Origin: Prevotella sp. | Lineage (GTDB): Bacteria > Bacteroidota > Bacteroidia > Bacteroidales > Bacteroidaceae | Reading direction: 5' to 3' | DNA length: 38,767 nt | Assembly: GCA_017561825.1 (NCBI GenBank) | Contig: JAFZBK010000031.1 | Span: 1-38,767, forward strand | Part shown: positions 200 to 27,060 of the stretch, piece by piece | Numbering within the stretch: position 1 is the first letter of the stretch | Layout of the letters: each line of letters opens with the position of its first letter | Translations under genes and position numbers: made by a program | Notes under the pieces: generated by a model | What the model was told of the DNA's origin: nothing | Seen by the model: only the letters and a program-made list of their open reading frames with translations | The model's database searches: none

Positions 200-1405
200 T
201 TACTCCTTATAAAACTCATTGACTAGGCTGCGGTAGCCAAGTCGTTTTAGTTGCGCATAATCCGTTCGGTAGTTAGCCTTGTTATGTTTCCCTGTGCCCA
301 GGAACCGGATGTTCTGCTGGAGATAATGGTCGATCTCCTTGAGACCGTCAGTCTTGTTGATCACTGGGAAGAACCAGCGCGACCAGGTGAGCGTTTCGGT
401 ATCGTCATTCTCAAAGAACACGCGGTTGAAACGGTTGATGAGACCTTTCATCGCCTTTTCGGGCTCGATATGGTTCTTGCTGCTCCAGCGTAGCAACGAC
501 ATCGTAGCACGCTTGATCTTCCCCTTCATCTTCTTTTTCGTGGCCTCCGAGATATCGATGTCATGACCATGACACTTGAATCCTAAGAACTCATAGGGTT
601 CATCGGGTGCGTATATCTTTTCTTTGGTGGGGTTTACTTCCAGTTGGTATTTCTGGAGGAACTCCGCCATCTTGTTTCTATAGGTATCCAGTGTGGCACG
701 GTTAGGCGCAAACAGGATGATGTCATCAGAATAGCGGGCATAAACCACATTGGCATCATGGAAATATTGGTCCACCTCTTTCAGATACACATCGGCCAGG
801 AATGGGGAGGTGGGCGTGCCTGCCATCACACCATGATGCTCCTGGATGATCTCACCGTTGTAAACCACCCGGTTATCGGTCAGCATCTTTTCAAAGAAAC
901 GATATAGCGGTTGATCGTTAGCTATCAGTTCTGCCAGCATCGGCAACAGGATGTCGATGGAAATGGAGTTGAAATAATCATGGATGTCGAGCTTGTAGGC
1001 CCACATCTGTCGGTCACCAATGGCTCGCCGTAAGTGGAAGATGGCATCACTGGCTTTGATGCCCCGTCGGAACGCGTAGCAGTTGGGCGAAAAGCATGCA
1101 TCGTAGTTGTAGAGCTGGAAGGCGATGAGTTTGAGGATCATCATCTCGTCGGGTGCGAAACTGTACACCACCCGTTTCTTGCCCGTACCCATCTTGTTGA
1201 TGATCTTCTTTTGGGGAATACCCAAGCTACCCCCCTGAGCAATCTTCAGTGCCAGCGGGAGGTATTCCTCGCGTTCCACATAAGTGTCGGCATCGACAAA
1301 CTCATGCCAGGTGAAACGACCTTTCATCAAACGGTAGGCAAGAAACGCTTCCCATGTTTCCTGTTGGGTTAGATCCTGTAAAATGGTCAAATGGTCAAAA
1401 GTCAA
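200..1405 (-). CDS. Orphan reverse transcriptase (group II-like, no maturase or HNH domain)
   Basis: The product is an RNA-directed DNA polymerase of about 400 residues. The polymerase core is intact: YKLDIHDYFNSI with the first catalytic Asp (about 137-148), MAGTPTSPF (194-202), YARYSDDI with the catalytic Asp pair (222-229) and FLGF (273-276). The C-terminal part, with HNKANY and LGYRSLV, is basic and has no recognisable endonuclease or maturase X domain. I see no retron NAxxH or VTG motifs. The listed start is a TTG inside a heptamer array, with an in-frame stop just upstream; a start a few codons later is equally possible, so the N-terminus is uncertain. A structured 260-base gap and a 172-residue gene lie upstream on the same strand. 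The lineage is unassigned; a defence-associated or unknown-group reverse transcriptase is possible but unproven. Confidence 0.88.
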   Translation of the reverse strand: MTFDHLTILQDLTQQETWEAFLAYRLMKGRFTWHEFVDADTYVEREEYLPLALKIAQGGSLGIPQKKIINKMGTGKKRVVYSFAPDEMMILKLIAFQLYNYDACFSPNCYAFRRGIKASDAIFHLRRAIGDRQMWAYKLDIHDYFNSISIDILLPMLAELIANDQPLYRFFEKMLTDNRVVYNGEIIQEHHGVMAGTPTSPFLADVYLKEVDQYFHDANVVYARYSDDIILFAPNRATLDTYRNKMAEFLQKYQLEVNPTKEKIYAPDEPYEFLGFKCHGHDIDISEATKKKMKGKIKRATMSLLRWSSKNHIEPEKAMKGLINRFNRVFFENDDTETLTWSRWFFPVINKTDGLKEIDHYLQQNIRFLGTGKHNKANYRTDYAQLKRLGYRSLVNEFYKE

Positions 1406-1490
1406 AGGTCAAAGGGATTCGGTCAAAAGTCAAAGGGATTTGGTCAAAGGTCAAAGGGAATCGGTCAAAGGGACTCGGTCAAAGGTCAAT
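1383..1490. repeat. GGTCAAA heptamer array
   Basis: About ten units of GGTCAAA, TGGTCAAA or AAGTCAAA alternate with short GGGATTC-type spacers. The array covers the 5' end and leader of the reverse transcriptase. Bases 1463-1485 are an inverted copy of part of 171-196 beyond the other end of the gene, and match 9215-9237 in direct orientation. Confidence 0.9.
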
Positions 1491-1514
1491 TTAAAGAAAA
1501 AGGGGAATGGTTTT

Positions 1515-1625
1515 GAATCCGCAAAATTGCGGATCACGAGAGGATACCTTGCCCAGTTGCCTGCAAAACATCGTTCTGTGGGTAAGGCTGCCTCCTCTGC
1601 AGGCGCAGCGTTGCTGCATCCCCTT
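1515..1625. other. Structured leader region upstream of the reverse transcriptase
   Basis: Three stems can be drawn by eye: a perfect 7-base stem (1517-1523 with 1528-1534), a 9-base stem with one G-U pair (1547-1555 with 1579-1587), and a small GCCT/AGGC hairpin (1590-1593 with 1601-1604) inside a CTGC/GCAG pairing. There is no open frame of note. On the minus strand it would be the 5' leader of the reverse transcriptase, or a separate small RNA. No known RNA family was recognised. Confidence 0.45.
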
Positions 1626-1639
1626 TTTCAAGTAATCTC

Positions 1640-1667
1640 TTGTTTCTTACTTCTTGCCTCTTGCTTC
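1640..1667. repeat. TTGcTTC heptamer array
   Basis: Four in-phase 7-base units (TTGTTTC, TTACTTC, TTGCCTC, TTGCTTC) end at the stop codon of the minus-strand gene at 1667-2185, so they lie in its 3' untranslated region. Confidence 0.75.
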
Positions 1668-2185
1668 TAATTTAAGAACTTGCGGATACGCCCGATGACA
1701 TAGCCTCTTTCGTTCGGCATCTGTGTGTAGAAGTTGATGTAGGGCATGCCTGACTTCTTGGCATACATCCGCGCAACGAGGTACTTCACATTGCTGTCGT
1801 GACTGTGTCCCTTGCCGAGCATGACCACTGCCTTGGGCGTTCCAGCGCTCTCAAGCACGAACGTGTAGGGCTGACCCCATTCGGCTTTATAGGCCTGCGT
1901 TGGACGCGTCTTGTAGAGCTGGAACTCATCGCTGACGAATCCAGCCAGGTCGGTCACCTTCACGTTCTCACGGATCGTGTAGGAAGAGAACTCGCTCTGC
2001 AGGATCTCCTTGAAGAAGGCATGCCATTCAGCGTCAGTCCTATAGATCTCCTCCGGCTCGGGTTCCGGCTCATACCGCTGTGCCGGACGTTCCTGTTGTG
2101 TCGGTGTCGCATCTTTCATGGAGTTGTCAATATAGTCTTTGGCAACATCCACAATCTTCTTTAATAAGATTTTTCCTAAATCCAT
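1667..2185 (-). CDS. Conserved-looking hypothetical protein, 172 residues
   Basis: I do not recognise this family. An amphipathic N-terminal helix (LGKILLKKIVDVAKDYI) is followed by a Pro/Glu-rich linker at about 38-48 and then an alpha/beta domain of about 120 residues. That domain contains TFVLESAGTPKAVVMLGKG and an Arg/Lys-rich end (GYVIGRIRKFLN). The C-terminal half loosely recalls nuclease-like or small-molecule-binding alpha/beta folds, but no catalytic signature is clear. It lies upstream of the reverse transcriptase on the same strand with a 261-base repeat-filled gap, so co-transcription is uncertain. A good promoter at 2213-2243 gives a leader of about 20 bases. Confidence 0.7.
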   Translation of the reverse strand: MDLGKILLKKIVDVAKDYIDNSMKDATPTQQERPAQRYEPEPEPEEIYRTDAEWHAFFKEILQSEFSSYTIRENVKVTDLAGFVSDEFQLYKTRPTQAYKAEWGQPYTFVLESAGTPKAVVMLGKGHSHDSNVKYLVARMYAKKSGMPYINFYTQMPNERGYVIGRIRKFLN

Positions 2186-2212
2186 AGTTTTCGTTTTTTA
2201 ATTAGTAGCATG

Positions 2213-2243
2213 CAAATATACGAATAAGTGAGCAAAGTACAAA
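2213..2243 (-). promoter_or_regulatory. Promoter of the 172-residue gene (shared-spacer family)
   Basis: TTTG, a 19-base spacer, then TATATTTG read on the minus strand toward the ATG at 2185. The spacer contains GCTCACTTATTCG, shared with promoters at 24928, 32484 and 35122. A degenerate second copy of the spacer and TACCTTGA lies just upstream at about 2286-2310. Confidence 0.8.
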
Positions 2244-2318
2244 ATAAATCTTGTTTATTTTTACTTTCGAGCGTGAGTATCTTCAAGGTACGATTAAGCG
2301 AGCAAAGTGGCTCTTCGT

Positions 2319-2533
2319 CAATTTAGTTGAAAGCGCGCACAGAATTTAAAAAAACCTTGAAAACCCTTGTTTGTGCTGTATGCTATTCAAGCATTCATCT
2401 ATAGGTATCAGTCAAATCCTCTTTATGCAAGCATAACCATTCTTTGACTAACACCTATAGATAGCCTTCGGCTTTACAGCCCAACCAAGAAAAACTACCG
2501 CTATCGCTAAAAAACCGAAATAGTTTTGGTATT
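2319..2533. repeat. Structured dispersed repeat, copy 1
   Basis: This copy matches 9240-9455 at nearly every position over about 215 bases. It forms a long stem: 2397-2406 with 2453-2462, then 2410-2416 with 2443-2449, with an apical TTATGC/GCATAA hairpin at 2423-2436. Smaller AUGCU/AGCAU and AGCC/GGCU hairpins lie on either side. In the minus orientation it directly follows the GxxExxY stop codon and includes the last nine codons of that gene. With 2186-2318, it accounts for the gap between that gene and its neighbour. Confidence 0.85.
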
Positions 2534-2803
2534 CACATCGTAATAGTACTTCTCGCATTGGTCTTTGACTGGAGCGAAATTATACAGTATACCTACTGGG
2601 GTGTTGGTCAGGCGCATATAATTCCACAACTGCTGACGCTGCTCGATGCCCAAAGAAGAAATGGCTTCCTGATAAACATATTCGTTCAGCCAAGGTCCTA
2701 GTTCCTTGTGAACATCTTGACAACAACCAATAATGTCGTAGACGTGTGATTTCAGTTGCGTTATAATATCTGTGTCGATGCTTGGACTATTGACGATCTT
2801 CAT
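2507..2803 (-). pseudogene. GxxExxY-type protein with its catalytic core deleted
   Basis: The N-terminal third (GCCQDVHKELGPWLNEYVYQ) is a clear GxxExxY signature, a family related to PD-(D/E)XK nucleases and usually about 125-140 residues long. The C-terminal part (QRQQLWNYMRLTNTPVGILYNF) also matches. Between YQEAISSLGIE and that segment, the roughly 40-residue stretch that normally holds the D...ExK-like core is missing, while the frame stays open for 98 residues. It is therefore an internally deleted, probably inactive copy. A second locus at about 9425-9455 keeps only the last nine codons. The cellular role of the family is not established. Confidence 0.75.
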
Positions 2804-2908
2804 TGTATTATCTTTTTTATGTAACGGGGCTTTTCTGCCTATTATTGCGTGAAACCATTGTTTTTGGGGTTTTTCGATTCTGTTGTTGATGCCGTAAGGC
2901 AGTTTGCG

Positions 2909-2958
2909 ATTCGTGTGTCAGTGAATACAAGTGCACTTGTATTCACTGATGCACGGAT
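2909..2958. repeat. Near-perfect 50-base palindrome
   Basis: Bases 2918-2949 form a perfect 32-base palindrome centred on GTGCAC. Pairing continues to 2909 and 2958 with three wobble pairs. It lies about 115 bases upstream of the GxxExxY remnant with no T-tract beside it. The rest of the 2804-3162 gap holds flank shared with 9468-9517, a short hairpin near 3054-3072 and a heptamer array. Confidence 0.8.
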
Positions 2959-3000
2959 TGAAAACAAGCGGGTGTTAACCCACAGACAACAGAAGCGGGT

Positions 3001-3050
3001 TTTCTTTGGTTTTTGTTTCGCTTCAACATAAATACGAGCGACGAGGAGGA
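3001..3050. repeat. Outer flank of structured repeat, copy 1
   Basis: About 50 bases nearly identical to 9468-9517. In copy 2 this flank lies only 12 bases beyond the structured element; here it is separated from it by 467 bases holding the GxxExxY remnant and the palindrome. This indicates that both loci come from one larger ancestral unit. Confidence 0.8.
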
Positions 3051-3122
3051 GTATGATAAAGCGCTGCTTTATGAAAATTGAAAAGTTGAAAAATTAATAT
3101 ATTGAATTTCAAAGGTAATCAT

Positions 3123-3147
3123 AAAGTTCAATGTTCAATGTTCAATT
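3123..3147. repeat. AATGTTC heptamer array
   Basis: AAAGTTC, AATGTTC, AATGTTC and a partial unit lie in 7-base phase, ending about 15 bases beyond the minus-strand stop of the sugar-phosphate transferase gene. Confidence 0.8.
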
Positions 3148-3162
3148 TAATCGGCTTGCCGA

Positions 3163-4278
3163 TTAAATGCTGTGGGGAACCCCTTCAACTTTTTTAATAA
3201 AATGATTAATGATTGCATGGAGCCCAATCCATAGGGCGAAATCAATGATCAGGATGTACGTGACATTCAGGTACCGGTTGATCAGGTAGTTGAACACCAT
3301 GTAGAACAGGGATAGACTGACAATGGTGATCACTACATAGCGCTTTGCCATGCCTGCCCGGATAAGCTTATGATGGATATGGTTACGATCAGGCATGAAC
3401 GGGTTACGTTTCTTGCGGATACGGTGCACCGCCACACGGAACACATCGAACAACGGTACCAGAAGGGCGCTGATGGCCACGATGACATGGTTGGTGACGT
3501 TCACTCCTTGTGCGCCCGTCAGACAGATGCGGAGGGCGAGGAAGCTGATAATGAAGCCAAGCGTGAGACTGCCCGTGTCGCCCATGAACAGCTTGTGTCC
3601 CCGTTTCTGGTTCCCGAACACATTATAGAACCAGAAGGGAACAACCACACCTAAGGTGGAGAAGGCTACGAGGGCATAGATGAGCTGTCGCTCCTTGATG
3701 AAGATGAGTCCGAAGGCCGTGAGGGCCAGGATGACCAGTCCGGAGGCCAATCCATCAACACCATCGATGAGGTTGAACGCATTGGTGATATACACCACGA
3801 TGAAGATGGTGAGCGGGTAGCTATACCGTGCCCGGAGCACATTGATGCCTAAGAACCCGTCGAGGTCGTGCAGCCATAAACCAGAGACTGCTAACAGCAG
3901 TCCGCAGATGATCTGTGCGATGAACTTGGAGCGGTAGGTGATACCGATCAGGTCGTCGCCCACGCCCACCACATACAGGATGGTGCCTCCCGCCAATAGG
4001 AAGAGGAACTCCTCGAGTACGATACGTTCAGGTACGTGGATGATATCGTAGCCCATGAGGTAGCGTACCGCCATGATAAGGGAGATGGAGATCACTACCA
4101 CGGGGTAGAACGACAGACCGCCGAGTCGCGGCACAGGCGTGTCGTGAATCTTCCGCTCATCGGGAACATCGTACAACTGGTGCTTGTGCGAGATCAGCAG
4201 GATGCGCGGGATGATGATGCAGGCCATGAGGGCTGACATCAGGAAGGCGGCGATGATGAATATGTAGGCTGCGGGCAC
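3163..4278 (-). CDS. WecA/MraY-like undecaprenyl-phosphate sugar-1-phosphate transferase
   Basis: This integral membrane enzyme would move a sugar-1-phosphate (in the family, usually GlcNAc-1-P) from a UDP-sugar to undecaprenyl phosphate, the first step in building a lipid-linked glycan. Evidence includes many membrane segments, GVGDDLIG (about 106-112) with the catalytic Asp pair, NLIDGVDGLASG (about 169-180), FMGDTGSL and the HIHH metal/UDP motif (about 301-304). The open frame extends to a GTG at 4332, but those 18 extra codons are encoded by a heptamer repeat, so I place the start at the GTG at 4278, before PAAYIFIIAAF. It follows the HAD, autokinase and rmlA genes on the same strand, which suggests capsule, exopolysaccharide or O-antigen synthesis. 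The exact sugar cannot be read. Confidence 0.88.
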   Translation of the reverse strand: MPAAYIFIIAAFLMSALMACIIIPRILLISHKHQLYDVPDERKIHDTPVPRLGGLSFYPVVVISISLIMAVRYLMGYDIIHVPERIVLEEFLFLLAGGTILYVVGVGDDLIGITYRSKFIAQIICGLLLAVSGLWLHDLDGFLGINVLRARYSYPLTIFIVVYITNAFNLIDGVDGLASGLVILALTAFGLIFIKERQLIYALVAFSTLGVVVPFWFYNVFGNQKRGHKLFMGDTGSLTLGFIISFLALRICLTGAQGVNVTNHVIVAISALLVPLFDVFRVAVHRIRKKRNPFMPDRNHIHHKLIRAGMAKRYVVITIVSLSLFYMVFNYLINRYLNVTYILIIDFALWIGLHAIINHFIKKVEGVPHSI

Positions 4279-4284
4279 GTGATA

Positions 4285-4325
4285 TAGTTTATAGTTGAAA
4301 GTTGAAAGTTTATAGTTTATAGTTT
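4285..4325. repeat. TAGTTTA heptamer array
   Basis: Six in-phase units (TAGTTTA, TAGTTGA, AAGTTGA, AAGTTTA, TAGTTTA, TAGTTT) sit between two minus-strand genes and include the stop codon of the upstream one. An apparent N-terminal extension of the downstream gene is encoded by this array. Confidence 0.85.
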
Positions 4326-4739
4326 CCACCACTTTTTCTTGGGTGGTTCGGGGTTATTCTCGGGCTGGCGCTCACGGATGATGTCGCGCCAGGTTTTGTT
4401 CTCAGAGATCATGCGGTAGATGGTGCCCCAGTCGGGCAGACCACCGATGTTTCGGTCATCAATGAAGACATCGACCTTGAGCTTGCGGGAGAAATGGATG
4501 TTCTTTTCCACATCCTCCTCGGGGAAGTCGCGGTTGATGGCATAGAAATCCACCCCGCGCTCATGGCACCAGTCGATGGCCTCCTGCAGGAGGTCACCCT
4601 CGCGCACCGACCATAGGATGAGCTGGTGCCGGTCGTTGATCAGCATGCGAAGGGTCTCTGTGGCGAACGGGATCTCCCGTCCGATGCGTGGATACTCATG
4701 CTCCACAATGGTTCCGTCGAAATCTACTGCTATTAACAT
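4317..4739 (-). CDS. HAD-superfamily hydrolase
   Basis: This is a small soluble phosphohydrolase-type protein of 140 residues. DFDGTIV at 6-12 supplies the nucleophile and acid/base Asp pair, LWSVREG supplies the second motif (Ser), and FIDDRNIGG at about 91-99 supplies the acidic pair. The length and pattern match the small Bacteroidales hydrolases often found in polysaccharide loci; the substrate is unknown. It starts two bases after the autokinase stop and ends within the heptamer array before the transferase, so the genes are probably co-transcribed. A short Pro/Lys tail (PEPPKKKWWKL) follows the fold. Confidence 0.8.
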   Translation of the reverse strand: MLIAVDFDGTIVEHEYPRIGREIPFATETLRMLINDRHQLILWSVREGDLLQEAIDWCHERGVDFYAINRDFPEEDVEKNIHFSRKLKVDVFIDDRNIGGLPDWGTIYRMISENKTWRDIIRERQPENNPEPPKKKWWKL

Positions 4740-4741
4740 TT

Positions 4742-7272: not shown

Positions 7273-7300
7273 GAGGAAGGAGTAGGGAGGAGGGAGGAAG
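7273..7300. repeat. GAGGAAG heptamer array
   Basis: Four in-phase units (GAGGAAG, GAGTAGG, GAGGAGG, GAGGAAG) lie in the 152-base gap between rmlA and the autokinase gene. Nothing else is evident in that gap. Confidence 0.7.
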
Positions 7301-7407
7301 GAGATTACCTTCAAGTATAGTCTCCGTTTCTTTCCTTCAATCTTACACCTTTCTCTTCATATTATTATTAATTCATGATCTCAGTATCATTTCTCCTTAC
7401 TCGAGAA

Positions 7408-8331: not shown

Positions 8332-8412
8332 ATAATTTTCAACCATAGAATGCGAAGAATCCGCGGATTTTTTGTAATTTTGCATCGATTTTTCTGATTT
8401 GAGGAGGAAATT

Positions 8413-8527
8413 GAGGAGTGAGGAGTGTGGAGTGAGGAGTGAGAATAGTGCTGAGATACTGTATTCATTATCAAACCACCTGTACTTGAAACATATCTCA
8501 CTCCACACTTCACACTCCACACTCCAC
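8413..8527. repeat. Two facing heptamer arrays (GAGGAGT and ACTCCAC)
   Basis: Four perfect 7-base units at 8413-8440 (GAGGAGT, GAGGAGT, GTGGAGT, GAGGAGT) face four at 8500-8527 (ACTCCAC, ACTTCAC, ACTCCAC, ACTCCAC). The two arrays are near reverse complements, so a long imperfect hairpin with a 59-base loop is possible. They occupy the gap between divergent rmlA and the gene at 8577. Confidence 0.85.
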
Positions 8528-8576
8528 AAGAGTTGAGTATGTGAAACATGCGAAACGATATAAATTTATATAGAAA

Positions 8577-9203: not shown

Positions 9204-9269
9204 ATTCGGTCAAAGGTCAAAGGGACTCGGTCAAAGGGACAATTTAGTTAAAAGCACGCACAGATTTTT
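9204..9269. repeat. GGTCAAA heptamers plus 55-base repeat
   Basis: GGTCAAA units begin a few bases after the stop of the gene at 8577. Bases 9215-9269 are an exact inverted copy of 142-196. The end overlaps the start of structured repeat copy 2. Confidence 0.9.
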
Positions 9270-9455: not shown

Positions 9456-9714
9456 GTTTTTTAGGTTTTTCTTTGGTTTTTGTTACGCTTCAACATAAAT
9501 ACGAGCGATGAGTAGGAGCGGAAAAGAAATCATGGCTCACCCCGAAGGGGCAAAGGCTGGATGGCTTTGCCAAATTGAAAATTGATAATTGAAAATTGAA
9601 AATTTCAATGCGCAAGCCGAAAGAAAAACACGCCAGGGCTTAGATGCCCTGAGCGTACCTTAATGAACGAGCGACGAGTAGGAGCGGTTGAGCCTTCCCA
9701 TATAGGGAACTGAT
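9456..9714. other. Repeat-filled intergenic stretch, no gene
   Basis: This stretch holds the outer flank shared with copy 1 (9468-9517), two ACGAGCGAyGAGTAGGAGCGG units (about 9499 and 9668), and an AATTGAA heptamer array at 9573-9600. Short open frames here look like chance. No RNA gene was recognised. Confidence 0.7.
9573..9600. repeat. AATTGAA heptamer array
   Basis: Four in-phase units: AATTGAA, AATTGAT, AATTGAA, AATTGAA. It lies in a long gap between genes and is not beside a stop codon. Confidence 0.8.
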
Positions 9715-9778
9715 GGAGCAGCGAGAGCAGAGCGATGTTTGCATCAGCTATGCCGAGAGGCGACAGAAGTCGACGAAG
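9715..9778 (+). repeat. Two-hairpin dispersed repeat, copy A
   Basis: This is one of three related copies of about 62 bases (others at 14501-14560 minus and 22163-22223 plus). It starts GGAGCAGCGAGAGC and ends CGACGAAG. The left stem pairs AGCGATG (9731-9737) with CATCAGCT (9742-9749); the right stem pairs CGAC with GTCG. Both stems differ in sequence from the other copies yet still pair. Confidence 0.75.
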
Positions 9779-12159: not shown

Positions 12160-12194
12160 AATTGACAATTGACAATTGACAATTGACAATTGAT
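12160..12194. repeat. AATTGAC heptamer array after rny
   Basis: Five in-phase units (four AATTGAC and one AATTGAT) begin one base after the rny stop and fill the gap to the converging gene. Confidence 0.9.
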
Positions 12195-12203
12195 AATTAA
12201 CCA

Positions 12204-12803: not shown

Positions 12804-12817
12804 AATTGACAATTGAC
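12804..12817. repeat. AATTGAC heptamers
   Basis: Two full AATTGAC units and a partial third lie in the 25-base gap between the beta-subunit gene and the regulator. Confidence 0.65.
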
Positions 12818-12819
12818 AA

Positions 12820-13977
12820 TTAGGAGAGGAATCCTAAGAGGGCACCTGCTGCTACGGCAGAGCCGATCACACCAGCTACGTTCGGACCCATGGCGTGCAT
12901 GAGCAGGAAGTTATGACGATCGTACTCCAGACCGAGGTTGTTGGAGATACGGGCAGCCATCGGCACAGCCGACACACCGGCATTACCAATCAGCGGGTTG
13001 ATCTTCTTATCCTTCGGCAGGAACAGGTTCATGATCTTCACGAAGCCTACACCACTCATCGTAGCTACGAAGAAGGCACCGGCACCGATGGCGAAGATAT
13101 AGATGGTGTTCAAGGTCAGGAACTCGCTGGCCTGGGTGGAGCAACCTACCGTCAGACCGAGCAGGATGACCACGATATCGTTCAGCGCAGAACCGGCTGT
13201 CTTGGCCAGACGGGTGGTCTTACCACTCTCCTTCAGCAGGTTACCGAAGAAGAGCATACCCAGCAGGGGCAGACCCGACGGTACGATGAAGGTGGTCATC
13301 AGCAGACCGATGATGGGGAAGAGGATACGCTCTGTCTGACTGACGTGACGTACGGGCTTCATACGGATGAGACGCTCCTTCTTGGTGGTCATCAGACGCA
13401 TTACCAACGGCTGGATCACCGGTACGAGGGCCATATACGAATAGGCACACACGGCGATGGCACCCATGAGGTTCGGTGCGGTCTTGGATGACAGGAAGAT
13501 GGCGGTAGGACCGTCGGCACCACCGATGATGGCGATACCTGCTGCCTGGTTCGGCTCAAAGCCCAAGGCCAAGGCCAGCATATAGGCACCGAAGATACCG
13601 AACTGTGCCGCAGCACCGATCAGCACCAGCTTGGGATTGGCGATCAGTGCGGAGAAGTCGGTCATGGCACCAATGCCTAAGAAGACGAGTGGGGGATACC
13701 ATCCCTGTCGTACACCCTGGTAGAAGATGTTCAGTACGGAGTTGTCCTCATACAGACCGATCTCCAGTCCGGCATCCGCCCGGAACGGGATGTTACCGAG
13801 GATGATACCGAGTCCGATGGGTACGAGCAGCAACGGCTCGAAATCTTTCTTGATGGCGAGCCAGATAAAGAAGGCTCCCACGGCAATCATGATGAGGTTG
13901 GGTATCGTCGCATTGGCGAAACCCGTATAGGTGAGGAACTCGTTAAAGTTGCTTACGATGAATTCTGTGAAACTCAT
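12820..13977 (-). CDS. oadB: Sodium-pumping decarboxylase beta subunit
   Basis: This integral membrane subunit of the oxaloacetate/methylmalonyl-CoA/glutaconyl-CoA decarboxylase family couples decarboxylation of carboxybiotin to Na+ export. The 385-residue length, many membrane spans and family segments such as GGADGPTAIFLSSK, NAGVSAVPMAAR and HAMGPNVAGVIGSAVAAG fit well. The biotin carrier and gamma subunit precede it on the same strand. In Bacteroidales the methylmalonyl-CoA form, in the succinate-to-propionate route, is most likely, but the carboxyltransferase that would decide this is not in the window. Confidence 0.93.
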   Translation of the reverse strand: MSFTEFIVSNFNEFLTYTGFANATIPNLIMIAVGAFFIWLAIKKDFEPLLLVPIGLGIILGNIPFRADAGLEIGLYEDNSVLNIFYQGVRQGWYPPLVFLGIGAMTDFSALIANPKLVLIGAAAQFGIFGAYMLALALGFEPNQAAGIAIIGGADGPTAIFLSSKTAPNLMGAIAVCAYSYMALVPVIQPLVMRLMTTKKERLIRMKPVRHVSQTERILFPIIGLLMTTFIVPSGLPLLGMLFFGNLLKESGKTTRLAKTAGSALNDIVVILLGLTVGCSTQASEFLTLNTIYIFAIGAGAFFVATMSGVGFVKIMNLFLPKDKKINPLIGNAGVSAVPMAARISNNLGLEYDRHNFLLMHAMGPNVAGVIGSAVAAGALLGFLS

Positions 13978-13982
13978 ATCTT

Positions 13983-14003
13983 AAAGTTCAAAGTTCAAAG
14001 TTC
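13983..14003. repeat. AAAGTTC heptamer array
   Basis: Three perfect AAAGTTC units lie between the biotin-carrier stop and the beta-subunit start. Confidence 0.8.
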
Positions 14004-14017
14004 AAAAATTAAAGTTA

Positions 14018-14471: not shown

Positions 14472-14492
14472 AATGTTCAATGTTCAATGTTC
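14472..14492. repeat. AATGTTC heptamer array
   Basis: Three perfect AATGTTC units lie 14 bases upstream of the biotin-carrier start on the minus strand. Confidence 0.8.
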
Positions 14493-14500
14493 AAAGTTAT

Positions 14501-19277: not shown

Positions 19278-20045
19278 TTGAAAATTATATTTTTAGGAAC
19301 TGGAACATCGGTAGGCGTACCCGCCATTGGCTGTACGTGCAAGGTGTGTAAGAGTCAGGATCCGCACGATAAGCGTTTGCGCGCTTCGGCACTGGTGGAG
19401 ACTGACCAGACACGCATCCTGATAGATCCAGGTCCTGACTTCCGTCAGCAGATGCTCGCTCAACCGTTCAGGAAGATCGATGCCGTGCTGGCCACTCATA
19501 TCCATTACGACCATGTGGGCGGACTGGATGATATCCGACCGTTCTGTCAGTTCGGTGAAGTGAACGTGTATGCTGACGAGAGGACTTCCCGAGGACTCAT
19601 GAGCACGGTGCCTTACTGCTTTGCCGAGAACAGGTATCCGGGTGCCCCAAAGATCAATCTCCATACCTTACAATACCACCAGCCGATTCAGGTGAACGAG
19701 CTGGAGGTGATGCCTTTCTGCGTGTATCACGGTAAACTGCCCATCACGGGGTTCCGCATTGGGAACCTGGTATATATCACGGATATGAAGACCATAGATG
19801 ACAGTGAGCTGTCTTTCGTGATGCATGCCGACACCTTGGTGGTGAATGCCCTGAGATTCTTCCCCAGTCATCACTCCCATCAGGGTGTGGACGATGCCGT
19901 GGCCTTTGCCCGTAGGGTAGGGGCAAAGAAAACATTCCTGACACACATGTGCCATGATGTGGGATTACATGAGGAAGTGAACAAACTACTGCCCCCCGAT
20001 ATCCAATTGGCTTACGACGGACAGGTGGTGGAGGTGGGAGAGTAA
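19278..20045 (+). CDS. PhnP-like metallo-beta-lactamase-fold hydrolase
   Basis: A 255-residue metal-dependent hydrolase. THIHYDHVGGLDD supplies HxHxDH, and further metal ligands lie in ITDMKTID and the HHSHQG and LTHMCHD segments. The GCTCKVCKS cluster near the start is typical of the PhnP-type branch, which acts on cyclic phosphodiesters, though the substrate here is unknown. The only usable start is a TTG at 19278, since a stop lies just upstream. It probably shares a transcript with murB. Confidence 0.88.
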   Translation: MKIIFLGTGTSVGVPAIGCTCKVCKSQDPHDKRLRASALVETDQTRILIDPGPDFRQQMLAQPFRKIDAVLATHIHYDHVGGLDDIRPFCQFGEVNVYADERTSRGLMSTVPYCFAENRYPGAPKINLHTLQYHQPIQVNELEVMPFCVYHGKLPITGFRIGNLVYITDMKTIDDSELSFVMHADTLVVNALRFFPSHHSHQGVDDAVAFARRVGAKKTFLTHMCHDVGLHEEVNKLLPPDIQLAYDGQVVEVGE

Positions 20046-20108
20046 AGATGAAAGATGAGAGATGAAAGATGAGAGATGAGAGATAAGAGATGAGAGATAA
20101 GAGATGAG
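20046..20108. repeat. AGATGAG heptamer array, nine units
   Basis: Nine unbroken 7-base units (AGATGAA, AGATGAG, AGATGAA, AGATGAG, AGATGAG, AGATAAG, AGATGAG, AGATAAG, AGATGAG) start immediately after the TAA of the metallo-hydrolase and fill the gap to the convergent gene. It is the longest and clearest array of the window. Confidence 0.95.
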
Positions 20109-20111
20109 AGA

Positions 20112-20366
20112 TTATCTCTTGAATTTACGATAGAGTTTCCAGGCAAGCAGCAGACCGTCGAACACGCCGGCACTGGTGCTCATCAAACCCTGCATGCTCA
20201 CCTTCCTGCCCCTTCGGGTGGTCAACGCCGTGGGCTTGGCAAACAACTGTTTGCGTAGCTTGGTGATCTGATGGTTATCCTTGCGGATCTCCTTCAGCAA
20301 CTGCATCTTACGTTCCTCAATCGACCGTAAGGTGGTGTAGGTGGGCGCGTTCTCGTTCTCTATCAT
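20112..20366 (-). CDS. Small hypothetical protein, 84 residues
   Basis: This small protein has a charged helical N-terminal half (EERKMQLLKEIRKDNHQITKLRKQ), a Thr/Arg/Lys segment and a C-terminal stretch VFDGLLLAWKLYRKFKR that may lie at the membrane. No family is recognised. It is the third of a three-gene minus-strand set (YtxH-like, holin-like, this), 7 bases apart, and is likely part of the same envelope-stress or membrane-spacing unit. Confidence 0.65.
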   Translation of the reverse strand: MIENENAPTYTTLRSIEERKMQLLKEIRKDNHQITKLRKQLFAKPTALTTRRGRKVSMQGLMSTSAGVFDGLLLAWKLYRKFKR

Positions 20367-20724: not shown

Positions 20725-20732
20725 GTGCCTGC

Positions 20733-20951: not shown

Positions 20952-21116
20952 ACGCTTATTATTTTTAATTCTTGATAATCCTAAATCATTCGCAAATATA
21001 AGCATTCTTTTGCATTCCACCGCAAAAAAACCGCCCTTTTTTTGTTAAAACATATGTATTTTTGTCATTTAACAAACTTTATGCACGTTTTTTCCTTGTT
21101 TTTACGCGAATTTGTG

Positions 21117-21124
21117 TAACTTCG
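21117..21124 (+). promoter_or_regulatory. Candidate -7 box for the SPOR lipoprotein
   Basis: TAACTTCG, one base from TAnnTTTG, has CTTG 18 bases upstream at 21095-21098. It predicts a leader of about 55 bases before the ATG at 21184. Confidence 0.4.
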
Positions 21125-21183
21125 CACAATAAATTATTATTTGTCAATAACTAAGTTCAATATTAAACAACAAAGAGAAAGTT

Positions 21184-21681
21184 ATGAAAAAGTACATGTT
21201 TGTTTGCGCAGGTTTAGCTGTTGCACTGGCTTTTACAAGTTGTAAATCCTCTGAGAGTGCCTATCGTAAGGCTTATGACAAGGCAAAGGCTCAGGAAGAG
21301 GCCAATCTGGCCAACAACAACTACGGTGAGGAGACTCCTGTCGTTGCTCCGGTACAGACCCGTCCTTCCACAGAGACAGTTGTCGTAGATAATGTTGACA
21401 ATGTGTCTGTACGCCCCGAGAAGCTGCAGGTGGTTGACGGCGCTGGTCTGAAGAGCTTCAGCGTGGTTGTAGGCTCCTTCTCTGTAAAGGCAAATGCCGT
21501 GGGTCTGGCTCAGCGTCTGCGTAATGCCGGCTATCCTGCACAGGTTGCTTTCAACAGCAGTAACAATATGTATCGTGTGGTGGCTACCACTTTCGACGAT
21601 AAGGCAAGTGCCGTGCGCAGCCGCAATGATTTCCGTGCAGGCGAGTATGCTGATGCATGGCTGCTGTTTAACCAGCAGTAA
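21184..21681 (+). CDS. SPOR-domain lipoprotein
   Basis: A 165-residue exported protein. Residues 1-20 form a lipoprotein signal ending ALAFTSC. A variable linker follows, and a C-terminal SPOR domain (about 90-165) starts with FSVVVGSFSVKANA and includes AQRLRNAGYPAQV and YRVVATTFDDK. SPOR domains bind denuded septal peptidoglycan, so this is probably a division or cell-wall protein. It ends 6 bases before ruvX. Confidence 0.88.
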   Translation: MKKYMFVCAGLAVALAFTSCKSSESAYRKAYDKAKAQEEANLANNNYGEETPVVAPVQTRPSTETVVVDNVDNVSVRPEKLQVVDGAGLKSFSVVVGSFSVKANAVGLAQRLRNAGYPAQVAFNSSNNMYRVVATTFDDKASAVRSRNDFRAGEYADAWLLFNQQ

Positions 21682-21687
21682 TCAGCT

Positions 21688-22107
21688 GTGGCACGCATTC
21701 TATCGATAGATTACGGTAAGAAACGTACAGGTATAGCAGTCACCGACCCATTGCAGATTATTGCCAATGGGTTGGCGACTGTTTCTACTTCTGAGCTGTT
21801 CAACTACCTGAAGGATTATCTCTCACGCGAGCAGGTGGAGAGGATCATTATCGGAAGACCGCTACAGACCAACGGACTGCCGAGCGAGAACCTGCAGCGG
21901 GTGGAGCAGTTCGTGAACAGATGGCGGAAAGAGATGCCTGACGTTCCCGTGGAATATGTGGACGAGCGGTTCACCTCCGTTCTGGCTCACCAGGCCATGA
22001 TCGATGGCGGACTCCGCAAGAAGGCGCGACAGGACAAGGCGTTGGTTGACAAGATCAGTGCCACCATCATGTTGGAGGACTACCTGAGAAGGCACGTTTT
22101 GCCTTAA
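21688..22107 (+). CDS. ruvX: RuvX/YqgF-type Holliday junction resolvase
   Basis: A 139-residue RNase H-like nuclease, proposed to cut Holliday junctions or process rRNA ends. SIDYGKKRTGIAVTD near the start holds the first catalytic Asp, GRPLQTNG the central loop, and VDERFTS plus the C-terminal KISATIMLEDYL segment the others. The start is a GTG at 21688. A heptamer array begins right at its stop. Confidence 0.92.
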   Translation: MARILSIDYGKKRTGIAVTDPLQIIANGLATVSTSELFNYLKDYLSREQVERIIIGRPLQTNGLPSENLQRVEQFVNRWRKEMPDVPVEYVDERFTSVLAHQAMIDGGLRKKARQDKALVDKISATIMLEDYLRRHVLP

Positions 22108-22154
22108 TTAATAATTAATAATTAAGAATTAATAATTCTTCATTTTTCATTTTT
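22106..22154. repeat. AATTAAT and CATTTTT heptamer arrays
   Basis: AATTAAT, AATTAAT, AATTAAG, AATTAAT and AATTCTT lie in phase from the last base of the ruvX stop region. Two CATTTTT units follow at 22141-22154. Confidence 0.8.
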
Positions 22155-22162
22155 CAACTTTT

Positions 22163-22223
22163 GGAGCAGCGAGTGCCAATATGCTCGCATGATTGGCCGA
22201 GTCGTGACAAAAGTCAACGAAGT
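22163..22223 (+). repeat. Two-hairpin dispersed repeat, copy C
   Basis: The third copy of the family at 9715 and 14501. The left stem GCCAATATGC pairs with GCATGATTGGC (22175-22197, one bulge). The right stem CGTGAC pairs with GTCAACG. It lies in the ruvX-def gap, ending 18 bases before the def start. Confidence 0.85.
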
Positions 22224-22241
22224 TAATTTTCAATTGTCGAA

Positions 22242-22802
22242 GTGATTCTACCTATTTATATATATGGACAGCCGGTACTCCGCAAGGAGTCGGTGGATAT
22301 TCCCAAGGATTATCCGAATCTTGATGAGTTGGTGACCAATATGTTTGAGACGCTGACAGCCAGTGAGGGTGTGGGATTGGCGGCTCCGCAGATCGGTCTG
22401 AACATCAGGGTGGCTGTCATCGACCTGGATGTACTCTCTGATGACCTGCCCGAATACAAGGATTTCAAGAAGGTGTACATCAATCCGCATATCCTTGAGT
22501 TTGACGATAGTGCGACGGAGACGATGGAGGAAGGCTGTCTGTCGCTCCCTGGAATCCATGAGAGCGTGACCCGCCCAACACGTATCCGCGTGAAGTACGA
22601 GGATGCGGAACGCAACGAGCACGAGGAGTGGGTGGATGGCTATCTGGCACGTGTGATGCAGCATGAGTTCGACCATCTGGATGCGCACATGTTCATCGAC
22701 AGGATATCTCCCTTACGCCGTCAACTGATCAAGAACAAGCTCAAGGCACTCACACTGGGTAAGTACCATTGCTCTTACCGCACAAAGCCCGTAAGAAGAT
22801 AA
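22242..22802 (+). CDS. def: Peptide deformylase
   Basis: This metalloenzyme removes the formyl group from the N-terminal Met of new proteins. All three motifs are present: GVGLAAPQIG (about 43-52), EGCLSLPG with the metal Cys (about 97-104), and QHEFDHLD with the HExxH-type ligands (about 139-146). Its 186 residues are a normal length. The start is GTG at 22242 (GTG ATT CTA CCT) because an in-frame stop precedes it. Confidence 0.96.
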   Translation: MILPIYIYGQPVLRKESVDIPKDYPNLDELVTNMFETLTASEGVGLAAPQIGLNIRVAVIDLDVLSDDLPEYKDFKKVYINPHILEFDDSATETMEEGCLSLPGIHESVTRPTRIRVKYEDAERNEHEEWVDGYLARVMQHEFDHLDAHMFIDRISPLRRQLIKNKLKALTLGKYHCSYRTKPVRR

Positions 22803-22842
22803 TTGATAATTGACAATTGATAATTGACAATTAAGAATTGAT
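22801..22842. repeat. AATTGAC/AATTGAT heptamer array after def
   Basis: Six in-phase units, alternating AATTGAT and AATTGAC with one AATTAAG, begin within the def stop codon and fill the gap to the next start at 22846. Confidence 0.9.
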
Positions 22843-22845
22843 AGT

Positions 22846-24882
22846 GTGAGGAGTTTCAGGAAGACAGTAAGGAACCAGGAAGGGTGTTGGGGTAGTGGAG
22901 GACTCCGCTACCTGTTGTCATCTGTTGCTGTCTTCGTCATGGCCTTGTTCCCCCTTGCCACTCATGCCCAATACAATATCGACCGCGTGTTGAATGCAGG
23001 ACGTGGAGCGCTTTACTATGAAGACTATGTGCTCTCCATGCAGTATTTCAACCAGGTGATCAGCGCCAAGCCTTATCTTTATGAACCATGGTTCTACCGA
23101 GCCGTGGCTAAGTATTATCTGGATGATTTCCAGGGAGCAGAGGCGGATTGTAGCGAGGCCATCAACCTGAATCCTTATATCTCAGGAATATACGACCTGC
23201 GAGGTGTGTGCCGTATCCGAATGAAGAAATACAAGGAGGCAGGGGCTGACTACGACATGGCTATCCTGCATGATCCTACCAGTCAGTCGCTATGGTACAA
23301 CCGTGCGCTTTGTCGTATTCAGGACAAGGATTACGACAAGGCGAACTTCGAGCTCGACTCGATGATGAACCGTTGGAAGACCAACGCGAAGGTGTATCAG
23401 CTGAAGGCGGAGGTGTGCATGCAGCAGAAAGACACTGTGAAAGCTTCCACCTTCCTGGATAAGTCGTTGGAACTGGATCCCTACGACGGTGAGGCATGGA
23501 CGGTTCGCGCCATGATCAGTCTGAGCAGGAGGAAATGGAAGGAAGCAGATGAGCAACTGGGTAAGGCGATTCATCTCAAGCCTTCTGCAGTAGGAAACTA
23601 CGTGAACCGTGCCTTGGCACGATATAACATCAATAACCTGCGGGGTGCCATGGCGGATTATGACAAGGCACTCGAGCTGGATCCGAACAACTTCCTGGCA
23701 CATTATAATCGCGGTCAGTTGCGTGTGCAGGTGGGTGATGACAACCGCGCTATCGATGATTTCGACTTCATCATCAAGATGGAGCCGAATAATATCATGG
23801 CTATCTTCAACCGCGCCTTGCTGCTCGACAGGACAGGTGATCTGCAAGGGGCCATACGCGACTATACCCGCGTGATTGATGAGTTCCCGAACTTCTGGAC
23901 GGGATTGCAATATCGTGCGAACTGCTACCGTCGTTTGGGCATGACCGCCAAGGCGGAGCTGGATGAGTTTCGCATTCTCAAGGCACAGATGGACAAGCAT
24001 TTGGGTATTCAACCACGGTGGAGTAAGAGTAAGCAGAAGGAGGTACGCAAGCAGAGCGACATTGACATGAACAAATACAACCAGCTGGTGGAGGCTGACG
24101 AGAACGAGGTGGAGCATGAATATGCCAGTGCTTACCGCGGAAAGGTGCAGAACAGGAAGGTGGATGACGACTTCATGGCGATGTATGTGCTCTCGTATCG
24201 ACGACAGATGGAGGGCGTGAAGTCGTTTACGGCCTTCGATAACGACGTGGAGCAATTCAACAACACAGCCAAACCCATTCACACGATCTTTATCTGCACC
24301 CATAACAAGGCACTTACACAGGATGAGACAAAGACGTTCTTTGCTTTGATAGATACTTTGTCGGAACGCATCAACCGCATCAGTAACTGGGAAAAGGAAC
24401 GCTCACTGCTCATCCAACGGGCTGTGGCCTATACCGTGGTGCAGAACTTCGATGAGGCTATCAACGACCTGACCGCTTATATCCAGACCGACAGTACTTC
24501 GTCTGTTGCCTATTGGCAACGGGCTGTGTGCCAGGCCATGATGAACGAGGTGTCACAGTCGCAAGGCATGGAGGCGAACCTGAAGACCGCCCGTACCTTA
24601 TCCGACTTCGACGAGGCTATCCGAAGGAATCCGCAGAATGCATTCCTCTATTACGATCGCGGTAATGTCTATGCTTCACGACAGGATTACCAGCGTGCGT
24701 TGGATGACTATACCAAGGCCATTACCTTGGAGCCGAACCTCGCTGAGGCGTATTATAACAGAGGACTAGCTCGACTGCGCTGCGGGAAGCGGAAGGAGGG
24801 TCTTGATGACCTGAGTAAGGCTGGCGAACGAGGACTCTATGATGCGTATAGCGTGATCAAGCAGTATAGGGAGAAGGAATGA
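22846..24882 (+). CDS. Large tetratricopeptide-repeat protein
   Basis: A 678-residue protein with an N-terminal hydrophobic signal-like segment (YLLSSVAVFVMALFPLATHAQ) and about ten TPR units (AVAKYYLDDFQGAEADCSEA, GNYVNRALARYNINN and AYYNRGLARLRCGKRKEG are typical). TPR arrays bind protein partners; here it would act in the periplasm or outer membrane. A GTG at 22846 is the start. In my recollection a TPR gene between def and thrS is common in Bacteroidales, but its role is unknown. Confidence 0.88.
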   Translation: MRSFRKTVRNQEGCWGSGGLRYLLSSVAVFVMALFPLATHAQYNIDRVLNAGRGALYYEDYVLSMQYFNQVISAKPYLYEPWFYRAVAKYYLDDFQGAEADCSEAINLNPYISGIYDLRGVCRIRMKKYKEAGADYDMAILHDPTSQSLWYNRALCRIQDKDYDKANFELDSMMNRWKTNAKVYQLKAEVCMQQKDTVKASTFLDKSLELDPYDGEAWTVRAMISLSRRKWKEADEQLGKAIHLKPSAVGNYVNRALARYNINNLRGAMADYDKALELDPNNFLAHYNRGQLRVQVGDDNRAIDDFDFIIKMEPNNIMAIFNRALLLDRTGDLQGAIRDYTRVIDEFPNFWTGLQYRANCYRRLGMTAKAELDEFRILKAQMDKHLGIQPRWSKSKQKEVRKQSDIDMNKYNQLVEADENEVEHEYASAYRGKVQNRKVDDDFMAMYVLSYRRQMEGVKSFTAFDNDVEQFNNTAKPIHTIFICTHNKALTQDETKTFFALIDTLSERINRISNWEKERSLLIQRAVAYTVVQNFDEAINDLTAYIQTDSTSSVAYWQRAVCQAMMNEVSQSQGMEANLKTARTLSDFDEAIRRNPQNAFLYYDRGNVYASRQDYQRALDDYTKAITLEPNLAEAYYNRGLARLRCGKRKEGLDDLSKAGERGLYDAYSVIKQYREKE

Positions 24883-24927
24883 AAACCAAACGAAATGCAA
24901 GCATTTCTTTGTTTTGCTGCTTCAAAA

Positions 24928-24959
24928 TTTGGTTTTTCGCTCACTTAATCGTAACTTTG
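24928..24959 (+). promoter_or_regulatory. Promoter of thrS (shared-spacer family)
   Basis: TTTG at 24928-24931, a 20-base spacer ending GCTCACTTAATCG, then TAACTTTG at 24952-24959. The ATG is 30 bases downstream. The spacer is shared with promoters at 2213, 32484 and 35122. Confidence 0.82.
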
Positions 24960-24989
24960 CATCCAAATTCTTTATAAACGTATAAATAG

Positions 24990-26933
24990 ATGATTAACAT
25001 TACATTTCCAGACGGCTCTGTTCGCTCGTATGAGCAGGGCGTGACAGGACTCGAAATTGCCGAGAGCATCTCTCCTGCCTTGGCACGTAGCGTGGTTAGC
25101 TGCGGTGTGAATGGGGAGACAGTGGAGTTGAACCGTCCTATCATGGAGGATGCTCCTTTCGCCCTCTATAAATGGGAGGATGAGGAAGGTAAGCACACCT
25201 TCTGGCACACCAGCGCTCACTTGCTGGCTGAGGCCCTGAAGGAGCTCTATCCGGGCATCCAGTTCGGATTCGGTCCGGCCATCGAGAACGGTTTCTTCTA
25301 TGATGTGCTGTTGCCCAATGGCGAGCAGATCAAGGAAGGTGACTTCGCAAAGATTGAGAACAAGATGAAGGAACTGGCTGGTAAGAAAGAGCCAGTGGTT
25401 CGTCGTGAGGTGGCCAAGGCGGATGCCCTGAAGGAGTTTGCCGCCGACGGTCAGACCTATAAGTGCGAACATATCGATCAGGACCTGGAAGACGGTACGA
25501 TCACTACCTATACACAGGGTAACTTCACCGACCTCTGTCGCGGTCCGCACCTCGTGAACACAGGTGAGATCAAGGCCGTGAAGTTGACCAGCGTGGCTGG
25601 TGCTTTCTGGCGTGGTGATGCTACTCGTGAGCAGATGCAGCGCCTGTATGGTATCTCCTTCCCCAAGAAGAAGATGCTGGATGAGTATCTCGTGATGCTT
25701 GAGGAGGCAAAGAAGCGCGACCATCGTAAGATCGGTAAGGAGATGGAACTGTTCATGTTCTCCGAGAAGGTGGGTAAAGGACTGCCCATCTGGTTGCCGA
25801 AGGGAACTGAGTTGCGCCTTCGTTTGCAGGATCATCTGCGCAAGGTACAGAAGCGTTTCGGCTATCAGGAGGTGATCACACCGCATATCGGTAGCAAGAA
25901 CCTCTATATCACATCCGGACACTATGCTCACTATGGTAAGGACTCATTCCGTCCGATTACCACTCCTGAGGAGGGCGAGGAGTATATGCTGAAGCCGATG
26001 AACTGTCCGCACCACTGCGAGATCTTCGCTTCCAAACCTCGTTCATATCGTGACCTGCCCCTCCGACTGGCTGAGTTCGGTACGGTATATCGCTATGAGC
26101 AGAGCGGTGAGCTTCACGGACTGACGCGTGTGCGTTCGTTCACCCAGGATGATGCGCACTTGTTCTGTCGTCCCGACCAGGTGAAGCAGGAGTTCCTGAA
26201 CGTGATGGATATCATCAATATAGTGCTTACTGCCTTCGGCTTTAACTTCGAGGCTCAGATCTCACTGCGTGATCCTAACGACCATGATAAGTATGTGGGT
26301 ACTGATGAGGACTGGGCATTGGCAGAGAAAGCTATCGTGGAGGCCTGCGAAGAGAAGGGCCTGCCGGCCAAGGTGGAATACGGCGAGGCTGCTTTCTATG
26401 GACCGAAGCTCGACTTCATGATCAAGGATGCCATTGGTCGTCGTTGGCAGTTGGGTACCATCCAGGTTGACTATAACCTGCCGAAGCGTTTCGAACTGGA
26501 ATATACGGATGAGGATAATACCAAGAAGACGCCTGTGATGATCCACCGTGCACCGTTCGGATCTATGGAGCGTTTCACAGCCGTGCTCATCGAGCATACC
26601 AGCGGTCACTTCCCCCTCTGGCTCACACCTGATCAGGTGGCTATCTTGCCGCTGTCGGAGAAGTACAACGACTATGCCAAGGAGGTAGCGAAGAAGTTTG
26701 ATGCTCAGGGTGTTCGTGCTACACTCGACCTGCGTAACGAGAAATTAGGTAGGAAGATTCGCGACAACGAGATGAAGCGTGTTCCCTATATGGTGATCGT
26801 GGGTGAGAAGGAACAGCAGGACGGTACCGTAGCCGTTCGTCCGCAAGGTGGCGGTGAGCAGAGTGTGAAGACCATCCAGGAGTTCATCGATGAGGTGAAT
26901 GCTAAGGTGGCTGAAATGACGAAGGACTTTTAA
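24990..26933 (+). CDS. thrS: Threonyl-tRNA synthetase
   Basis: This class II synthetase charges tRNA-Thr and edits Ser. An N-terminal TGS domain (1-60), an editing domain with HTSAH (about 72-76) and later zinc/editing ligands, a catalytic core with [13 protein letters not shown] (about 336), [10 protein letters not shown] and RFTQDDAH-type motif 2, and a C-terminal anticodon-binding domain (about 545-647) are all in order. Its length of 647 is normal. It leads the thrS-infC-rpmI-rplT cluster. Confidence 0.97.
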
Positions 26934-27008
26934 CTTTTATCTTTGAACTTTGAACTTTATGATTTGACCTGAGACCTTTGGCCTTAGATCCAAGACAATT
27001 AAACTTTG
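26932..27008. repeat. Degenerate 7-base-period array after thrS
   Basis: From the thrS stop onward the sequence can be read in 7-base steps (AACTTTT, ATCTTTG, AACTTTG, AACTTTA, TGATTTG, ACCTGAG, ACCTTTG, GCCTTAG, ATCCAAG, ACAATTA, AACTTTG). The period stays 7 while the units drift. Confidence 0.65.
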
Positions 27009-27032
27009 TTAAAATTATGTAATAGTAATCAT

Positions 27033-27060
27033 AAAGTTCAAAGTTCAAAGGTCATAGTTC
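27033..27060. repeat. AAAGTTC heptamer array before infC
   Basis: Four in-phase units: AAAGTTC, AAAGTTC, AAAGGTC, ATAGTTC. They end about 12 bases upstream of the infC -7 box. Confidence 0.8.

Follow-up and report, generated by a model that had tools for sequence, protein, structure and literature searches.

Heptanucleotide long simple sequence repeats (LSSRs) of prokaryotes were reportedly described by Mrazek in 2007. Here and below, published systems are cited for what excerpts of the respective papers state. Among intergenic tandem repeats in prokaryotes, heptamers are given as the commonest kind, without known function (PMC6344855), and slippage tied to the contact length of the polymerase has been proposed for the heptanucleotide LSSRs (PMC6344855, PMC4692102, PMC4679880). 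For the Xanthomonas GGGAATC repeats, 70 and 75 convergent inverted pairs are reported in two genomes, and the heptamers of Xanthomonas and Nostoc lie on average 28 nt past the upstream open reading frame (ORF), with 7-11% at least partly in ORFs (PMC4692102). Indels in the TAACTGA repeats of close strains are mostly 7-nt steps (PMC4679880). The subject of this study is a set of period-7 arrays in a 38,767-nt contig (JAFZBK010000031.1, hereafter the window) of a Prevotella sp. genome (GCA_017561825.1; 2.98 Mb, 69 contigs, 88% complete). They are heptanucleotide simple-sequence arrays of a widespread known kind (PMC6344855, PMC4692102, PMC4679880), and the parallel with heptamer repeats elsewhere that a first-pass annotation had drawn is borne out; its remark that no described mechanism was known in Bacteroidales was incomplete, heptamer arrays having been reported in five Bacteroidetes (MacGregor 2015, PMC4679880). 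In the present clade the arrays draw on a recurring repertoire of units, obey a strict strand polarity, occupy tolerant sites and are replaced at fixed sites between close species.

All 16 heptamer arrays listed in the first-pass annotation were recovered by Tandem Repeats Finder at positions agreeing within a few bases, together with two more period-7 arrays at 22135-22156 (ATTTTTC) and 26926-26958 (ACTTTGA). At lag 7 the window has 14 exact runs of at least 10 matches; apart from the multiples 14, 21 and 28, no further lag up to 30 has more than one. The noncoding part of 420 kb of the same genome (the window plus 20 stretches) held 46 lag-7 runs and at most one run at any other lag, except for 14 runs at lag 14; the crude first gene caller behind this count put 45 lag-7 runs in coding sequence. 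Twenty first-order Markov shuffles of noncoding segments of at least 40 nt gave 0-2 lag-7 runs, against 46 in the real sequence. Chance and composition as the source of the period are ruled out by the lag analysis and the shuffles, and the strict period claimed at first stands. Because the 420-kb stretches had partly been picked around array matches, the period count was redone on 264 kb of unpicked contigs, where 34 arrays of period 7 were found and periods 6, 8, 9 and 12 had 6, 7, 10 and 13, with 19 at the harmonic 14. Both the period histogram and the shuffled intergenic sequence, run on parts of the genome, thus agree with the original claim, and tandem units of fixed length exceed chance in this genome as in LSSRs. 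Array density was 136 per Mb in the unpicked contigs and 324 per Mb in the first sample. An assembly artefact is unlikely, since arrays are also found in separately assembled genomes, including two that have contigs as long as 3.3 and 2.7 Mb.

When units that differ only by rotation or strand are pooled, 46 types remain among the 136 arrays of the first sample. GAG is found in the units of 57 arrays, TTGA in 40 and both in 2, so that 99 of 136 contain one or the other, compared with 24% of all 7-mers. The recurring units are mostly GAGNNNN and TTGANNN and are common to different loci and species; a query with AGATGAG, for example, had 30 matches in the genome, itself counted. The arrays are therefore neither locus-specific in the sense first meant nor, as had been stated too strongly, built of units that differ completely between loci. 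Of 120 genomes of the genus, 90 had at least one match to a four-unit TTGANNN pattern (range 0-419 per genome); several genomes also had many matches to a reversed control pattern, probably owing to units that contain AGTT, and the TTGANNN counts therefore serve as an index and not a census. Arrays matched in other genomes of the genus combine differing NNN triplets with the phase kept, although the pattern itself demands TTGA. A comparison of 80 Prevotellaceae RNase Y loci gave the same patchy picture of period-7 richness.

The strand polarity of the arrays is pronounced. Consecutive arrays within 160 bp were taken as a neighbouring pair, convergent if their GA-rich strands point at each other. 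Convergent and divergent pairs numbered 18 and 1 in the window's own genome, 3 and 0 in its unpicked contigs, and 13 and 0 and 10 and 0 in the genomes G128 and G129; since the latter two are close relatives, the counts here and those beside stop codons (below) are not all independent. With the locus L011 added, this one clade has 48 convergent pairs, 1 divergent pair and 15 pairs in the same direction. Grouping the enclosed cores by BLAST similarity (cores under 18 nt counted singly) left 22 convergent groups and 1 divergent group (p = 6e-6), and the polarity is therefore not the inheritance of one element. Six further genomes contributed 5 convergent and no divergent pairs, spread over four of them, and 2 in the same direction. 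Cases of ambiguous polarity (2 of the 136 arrays, 4 pairs in the clade and 3 in the six further genomes) were excluded from the orientation counts. A second form of polarity is seen in arrays within 15 nt of a stop codon, where the GA-rich strand tends to coincide with the coding strand: it does so in 41 of 50 cases in the first sample of the own genome, 11 of 15 in the second, 12 of 13 in G128, 9 of 10 in G129 and all 11 in the six further genomes; the ratio of sense to antisense is 41:9 in the first sample and 43:6 in all others together. No orientation preference was seen near start codons, where cases are few. A directional process behind the arrays is supported.

The placement of the arrays relative to genes was analyzed with a home-made codon-usage caller rather than a standard program. 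Between tandem genes, 34 of 75 arrays overlap a stop codon or lie within 10 nt of it, compared with 16.5 (standard deviation 2.3) expected from random non-overlapping placement in the same gaps, which confirms the closeness to stops noted earlier; 15 are near a start. The arrays are not purely intergenic, as had been supposed. In the first sample, 31 of 136 sit within 24 predicted genes (minimum gene length 450 nt, with the array no less than 45 nt inside), and in the unpicked contigs 5 of 36 do. All but one of the 24 genes have a Pfam match (E 0.001 or better), and they include a SufS-type desulfurase, LpxB, an FtsH-type protease, Tex, asparagine synthase and a MurF-alanine racemase fusion. 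Measured against the best solved homologue only, the first array of the SufS-type protein aligns ungapped and the second adds about 10 residues, the LpxB array adds about 2, and those of CobT, Tex and asparagine synthase add about 5-8. The encoded peptides appear to differ between arrays on informal inspection. In the 13 sense in-gene arrays, stop codons number 0 in the coding frame, by construction, and 16 and 17 in the other two frames; in a gene of the peptidyl-arginine-deiminase family (L150), TGA is lost in every third unit.

Close genomes reveal turnover of the arrays. The RNase Y of the window has 98-99% matches at the metagenome-assembled loci L009 and L010 (Prevotella sp., the latter from yak omasum) and L011 (uncultured Prevotellaceae), and local alignments totalling 148 kb put G128 and G129 at 93.5% identity. 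A 180-kb portion of G128 held 36 array clusters, of which 31 were assigned a place in G129, 3 were unmapped and 2 flankless. Among the 31, an array was scored at 26 and none at 5, two of which are mapping artefacts: at L244:1353 the sister holds a TTGANNN array, and about two units remain in L010 at the L009:18583 site. At several sites the unit is replaced between conserved flanks, as at L247:17647 (CAGTTGA vs CTTTGAA) and L248:5009 (TGGAGTG vs GAGGAAG). The SufS-type gene has unit-swap sites as well, and one G129 site holds ordinary coding sequence instead of an array. In the gap at 13978-14017 the window has a GAACTTT array (13983-14006, minus strand by its GA-rich strand, the convention used for all arrays here; AAAGTTC on the plus strand), the array of L009, L010 and L011 is made of AATTATC, and L012 and L017 lack one. 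Past the RNase Y stop, L010 has by eye a single ATTGACAA where the window has an AATTGAC array (12160-12198, plus strand), a possible seed. An indel-length histogram from local alignments had no excess of 7, but it is blind at arrays because the alignments stop there.

The reading that we favour, tentatively and at a likelihood a little short of even, is polar 7-nt slippage combined with re-seeding, selection acting as a filter. Arrays would be born and extended by 7-nt slippage of the nascent 3' end during synthesis of the GA-rich strand, probably at stalled or repaired forks. GA-rich strands laid toward a troubled segment from both sides would leave convergent pairs around native gene sequence or a dispersed core, and units may be swapped because new ones are seeded repeatedly at the same tolerant sites. 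Selection would leave arrays directly past stops, in intergenic gaps and in frame within proteins, and some cores with their arms may be copied to other loci in the manner of miniature inverted-repeat transposable elements (MITEs) or Rickettsia palindromic elements. Several results weigh against this account. The period-7 excess is weaker in stretches of further genomes, with 12 period-7 and 12 period-9 arrays in G053 and no period-7 array in the G080 stretches, and nothing measured accounts for the period being 7. A total of 15 of 99 stop-adjacent arrays are antisense, and the units of 37 of the 136 arrays have neither GAG nor TTGA. Of the 31 placed clusters, 4 are identical in the sister and 4 more have the same length; the length difference is a multiple of 7 for 4 and some other value for 19, so slippage alone does not explain the turnover. 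With regard to the 7-base-stepping copying proposed at first, a directional process is supported, but simple 7-base copy-number change is not the main difference between sister species. Growth in a gradient from a 5' seed was not supported: in-phase similarity beyond the array did not differ between its two sides (n = 130, p = 0.35), and mismatches were if anything more frequent in the 3' half (p = 0.054), the opposite of the prediction. Polarity, birth at tolerant sites and repeated replacement nevertheless outlast the two failed copying predictions, this gradient and a mirrored unit order (below), and polar slippage is therefore preferred.

The arrays might instead be the ends of small foldback transposons, similar to MITEs or Rickettsia palindromic elements, that insert anywhere including genes, with solo arrays as broken remnants. 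We consider this unlikely as a general explanation. Two core families, B and C, occur at several loci and in the sister genomes with GAG...CTC ends, and only these two combine multiple copies, inverted ends and unrelated loci as MITEs do. In the window they are represented by a foldback with GAGGAAG arms at 7273-7402 (core B; L201 was used in comparison) and one with GAGTGAG/GAGTGTG arms at 8412-8528 (core C, with more copies in the genome). A core-C foldback lies in frame within an M16 peptidase gene (L159), and at 93.5% identity an element is present or absent between L009 (position 5668) and L010. However, most arrays lack an inverted partner: a clear one (local score at least 14, within 160 bp) was found for only 26 of 136, compared with 3 in a control with swapped arrays and 2 for direct repeats. 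The arms also vary between copies of one core type, being GAGTGTG-type, GAGGAAC or GAGGAGT for core C, and the left and right arms carry unlike units in 9 of 49 convergent pairs. In the L150 gene the arms frame a native conserved coding stretch; with phmmer, residues 3-94 and 125-363 of its product align with PDB 1zbr, leaving some 30 unaligned residues between, mostly array. No clean target duplication was apparent at the few sites inspected by eye, no systematic search for duplications having been made. Mobile foldbacks are regarded as a real secondary layer beside the favoured slippage.

Distinctly less probable is a function at mRNA 3' ends, with arrays kept as hairpins, terminators or backup stops. 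The stop-flush position, the sense orientation and the stop codons in many sense units are as this would predict, and different foldbacks follow thrS in the window (GAACTTT ... AAAGTTC, a convergent pair at 26926-27064 that begins at the stop) and in G006 (L090; GAAGAAT type). Several common units, such as GAGGAAG and AAGAAGC, contain no stop codon, however, arrays are also found in divergent gaps (8 of 93 classified arrays) and within genes, and 30 of 120 genus genomes had no match to the four-unit TTGANNN pattern.

We give only a small chance to foldback copying, in which one arm would be copied from the other in replication (quasi-palindrome correction). The two arms do share the same unit within 2 mismatches in 35 of 44 convergent pairs, compared with about 18% of random array pairs, and at L143 they mirror a variant unit, though with a permutation p of 0.22. 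Against this, mirrored unit order reached p < 0.1 in none of 38 testable pairs (combined p near 1, at the low power of about 4 units per arm), and copying of this kind predicts no preference of convergent over divergent pairs. An earlier in-register arm test (32 of 40 pairs better, 6 worse) was discarded, as it included core bases and optimized only the observed offset. A comparably slim likelihood is assigned to a dedicated, telomerase-like process that would tail free DNA 3' ends with GA-rich heptamers in break or gap repair, with strand polarity and the unit fixed per event. Where two tailed ends faced each other, the DNA between them, native or captured, would come to be flanked by convergent arrays of just the kind observed, and unit replacement would follow from recurrent breakage at tolerant sites. 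If this were true, the like arrangement in Xanthomonas would mark a general bacterial repair route behind the abundance of period 7.

A templating hypothesis is raised by the left edge of the window, where 200-1608 (minus strand) holds a full-length UG26 reverse transcriptase (RT) gene (PADLOC E 1.8e-161) with an RT-5 RNA (RF03026, 83 bits, 1504-1608, minus strand) directly upstream, and where a GGTCAAA array (1385-1489, minus strand; TTTGACC on that strand) lies between the two. A strong UG26 match was found in 13 of 120 genomes, whose median number of TTGANNN matches is 48, against 14 in the others (p = 0.011, uncorrected for phylogeny). Nevertheless, 18 genomes with at least 100 TTGANNN matches have no strong UG26 match and one UG26 genome has no TTGANNN match (some genomes are incomplete), RT-5 is single-copy in the genome, and only in the window does GGTCAAA stand beside the RT among the 13 UG26 loci, other heptamer arrays being present at 3 of the remaining 12. 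UG26 and RT-5 as a necessary generator are thus largely refuted, the weak association remaining, and telomerase-like templating by the pair is highly improbable. RT-5 accompanies UG26 at 12 of the 13 loci of the genus, the exception being L163, whose contig begins 65 bases before the UG26 match and thus lacks the site, and this suggests an RT-noncoding RNA pair. A Y1 (RAYT) transposase appears not to be required either, because the array-bearing genomes G008, G027 and G055 had no match; the own genome had one barely above the cut-off (24.2 vs 23 bits, E 6e-5, in a 351-aa frame).

The window holds further arrays. A short TTTGACC-type array at 171-196 (plus strand), a lag-14 run read from the sequence, lies at the 3' end of the UG26 RT gene, and the stretch is an inverted repeat of a short GGTCAAA array with the tail GGGACAATTTAGTTAAAAGCACGC at 9208-9260 (minus strand). 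Flush with stops are an AAGCAAG array at 1638-1668 (minus strand; TAG of the gene 1667-2185, minus strand) and an AGATGAG array of 9.6 copies at 20046-20112 (plus strand; stop at 20045). TAATTAA and then ATTTTTC arrays (22105-22156) run over the stop at 22107, and a TTGATAA/TTGACAA array (22798-22843, plus strand) encloses the stop 22800-22802. Two plus-strand arrays are antisense to the gene whose stop they overlap: TAGTTTA/AGTTGAA at 4283-4325, in a gap where L009, L010 and L011 have other foldbacks, and AATTGAC at 12804-12821 (gene 12820-13977, minus strand), where L010 and L011 have foldbacks. An imperfect convergent pair, TTGAAAA ... GTTCAAT with the inner end AATCAT (3072-3146), was paired by eye, its right array being placed at 3126-3146 by Tandem Repeats Finder. 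The same program delimits an AATTGAA array at 9572-9604 (plus strand) and a GAACATT array at 14472-14498 (minus strand; AATGTTC on the plus strand), at the site of which L009, L010 and L011 have AAAGTTC-type units.

Other repeats were seen along the way. Nine-base arrays (ACTAGTGTT/ACTAGTATT) are present at L009 19553-19727 and L010 19939-20104, where the gap of the window has a single copy, and by eye a long nested foldback of 8-9-base repeats (CAGAAATC type) occupies L011 8815-9285; inverted short-repeat arms are therefore not confined to period 7. Between RNase Y and a LuxR-like gene, L009 (10292-16363) and L010 (10212-16684) carry an additional stretch of about 6 kb; the AATTGAC array is all that the window has there. 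An element of about 110 bp that has no heptamer arms (9600-9720) is dispersed over 12 sites of the genome, this one counted, with identities of 80-94% for the rest, and 34964-35050 is a 22-bp tandem repeat with internal inverted symmetry (TGTTTCTACTAAGAAACACTC). An Rfam scan of the window, L009, L010 and L011 gave nothing above the gathering score except RT-5.

As far as our searches show, the combination of a core-independent polarity, fixed-site unit replacement and the presence of arrays within conserved genes is new, and no description of the arrays of this clade was found in the open-access literature. The polarity rule and the fixed-site replacement are two hard constraints on any mechanism, testable at strain level in the clade, and the arrays lying in frame within genes of the SufS, LpxB, Tex and FtsH types mean that the process reaches proteins too. 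With the heptanucleotide LSSRs, as excerpted, the arrays share tandem 7-nt units, a mostly noncoding location and patchiness among genomes (PMC6344855), and differ in the three features just combined. The TAACTGA repeats of Beggiatoaceae, Cyanobacteria and five Bacteroidetes are likewise intergenic heptamers patchy over lineages, but use a single unit that in their main genome lies mostly before starts (PMC4679880), whereas many units are used here, mostly past stops. BrickBuilt, a MITE of Porphyromonas gingivalis, is also an intergenic inverted-repeat element with tandem repeats, although its 23-nt direct unit lies inside the element and the arms here are inverted 7-nt arrays (PMC4596501). 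Rickettsia palindromic elements are short palindromes in frame in unrelated genes, for which the excerpt does not mention heptamer arms (PMC10969869); the arrays here are in frame in unrelated conserved genes as well, with palindromic pairs in only some of them (e.g. L150, L146 and L159). The heptamers of Xanthomonas (GGGAATC) and Nostoc (GGGGA(C/T)T) share with the present arrays heterogeneous units, variation of length and sequence at conserved positions (PMC4692102), convergent inverted pairs and a position past the upstream ORF. The difference is that one G-quadruplex-type unit per species is followed in that paper, while the arrays of this Prevotella clade, with GGG or CCC in only 5 of 136 consensus units, combine many unit types with dispersed cores and unit replacement.

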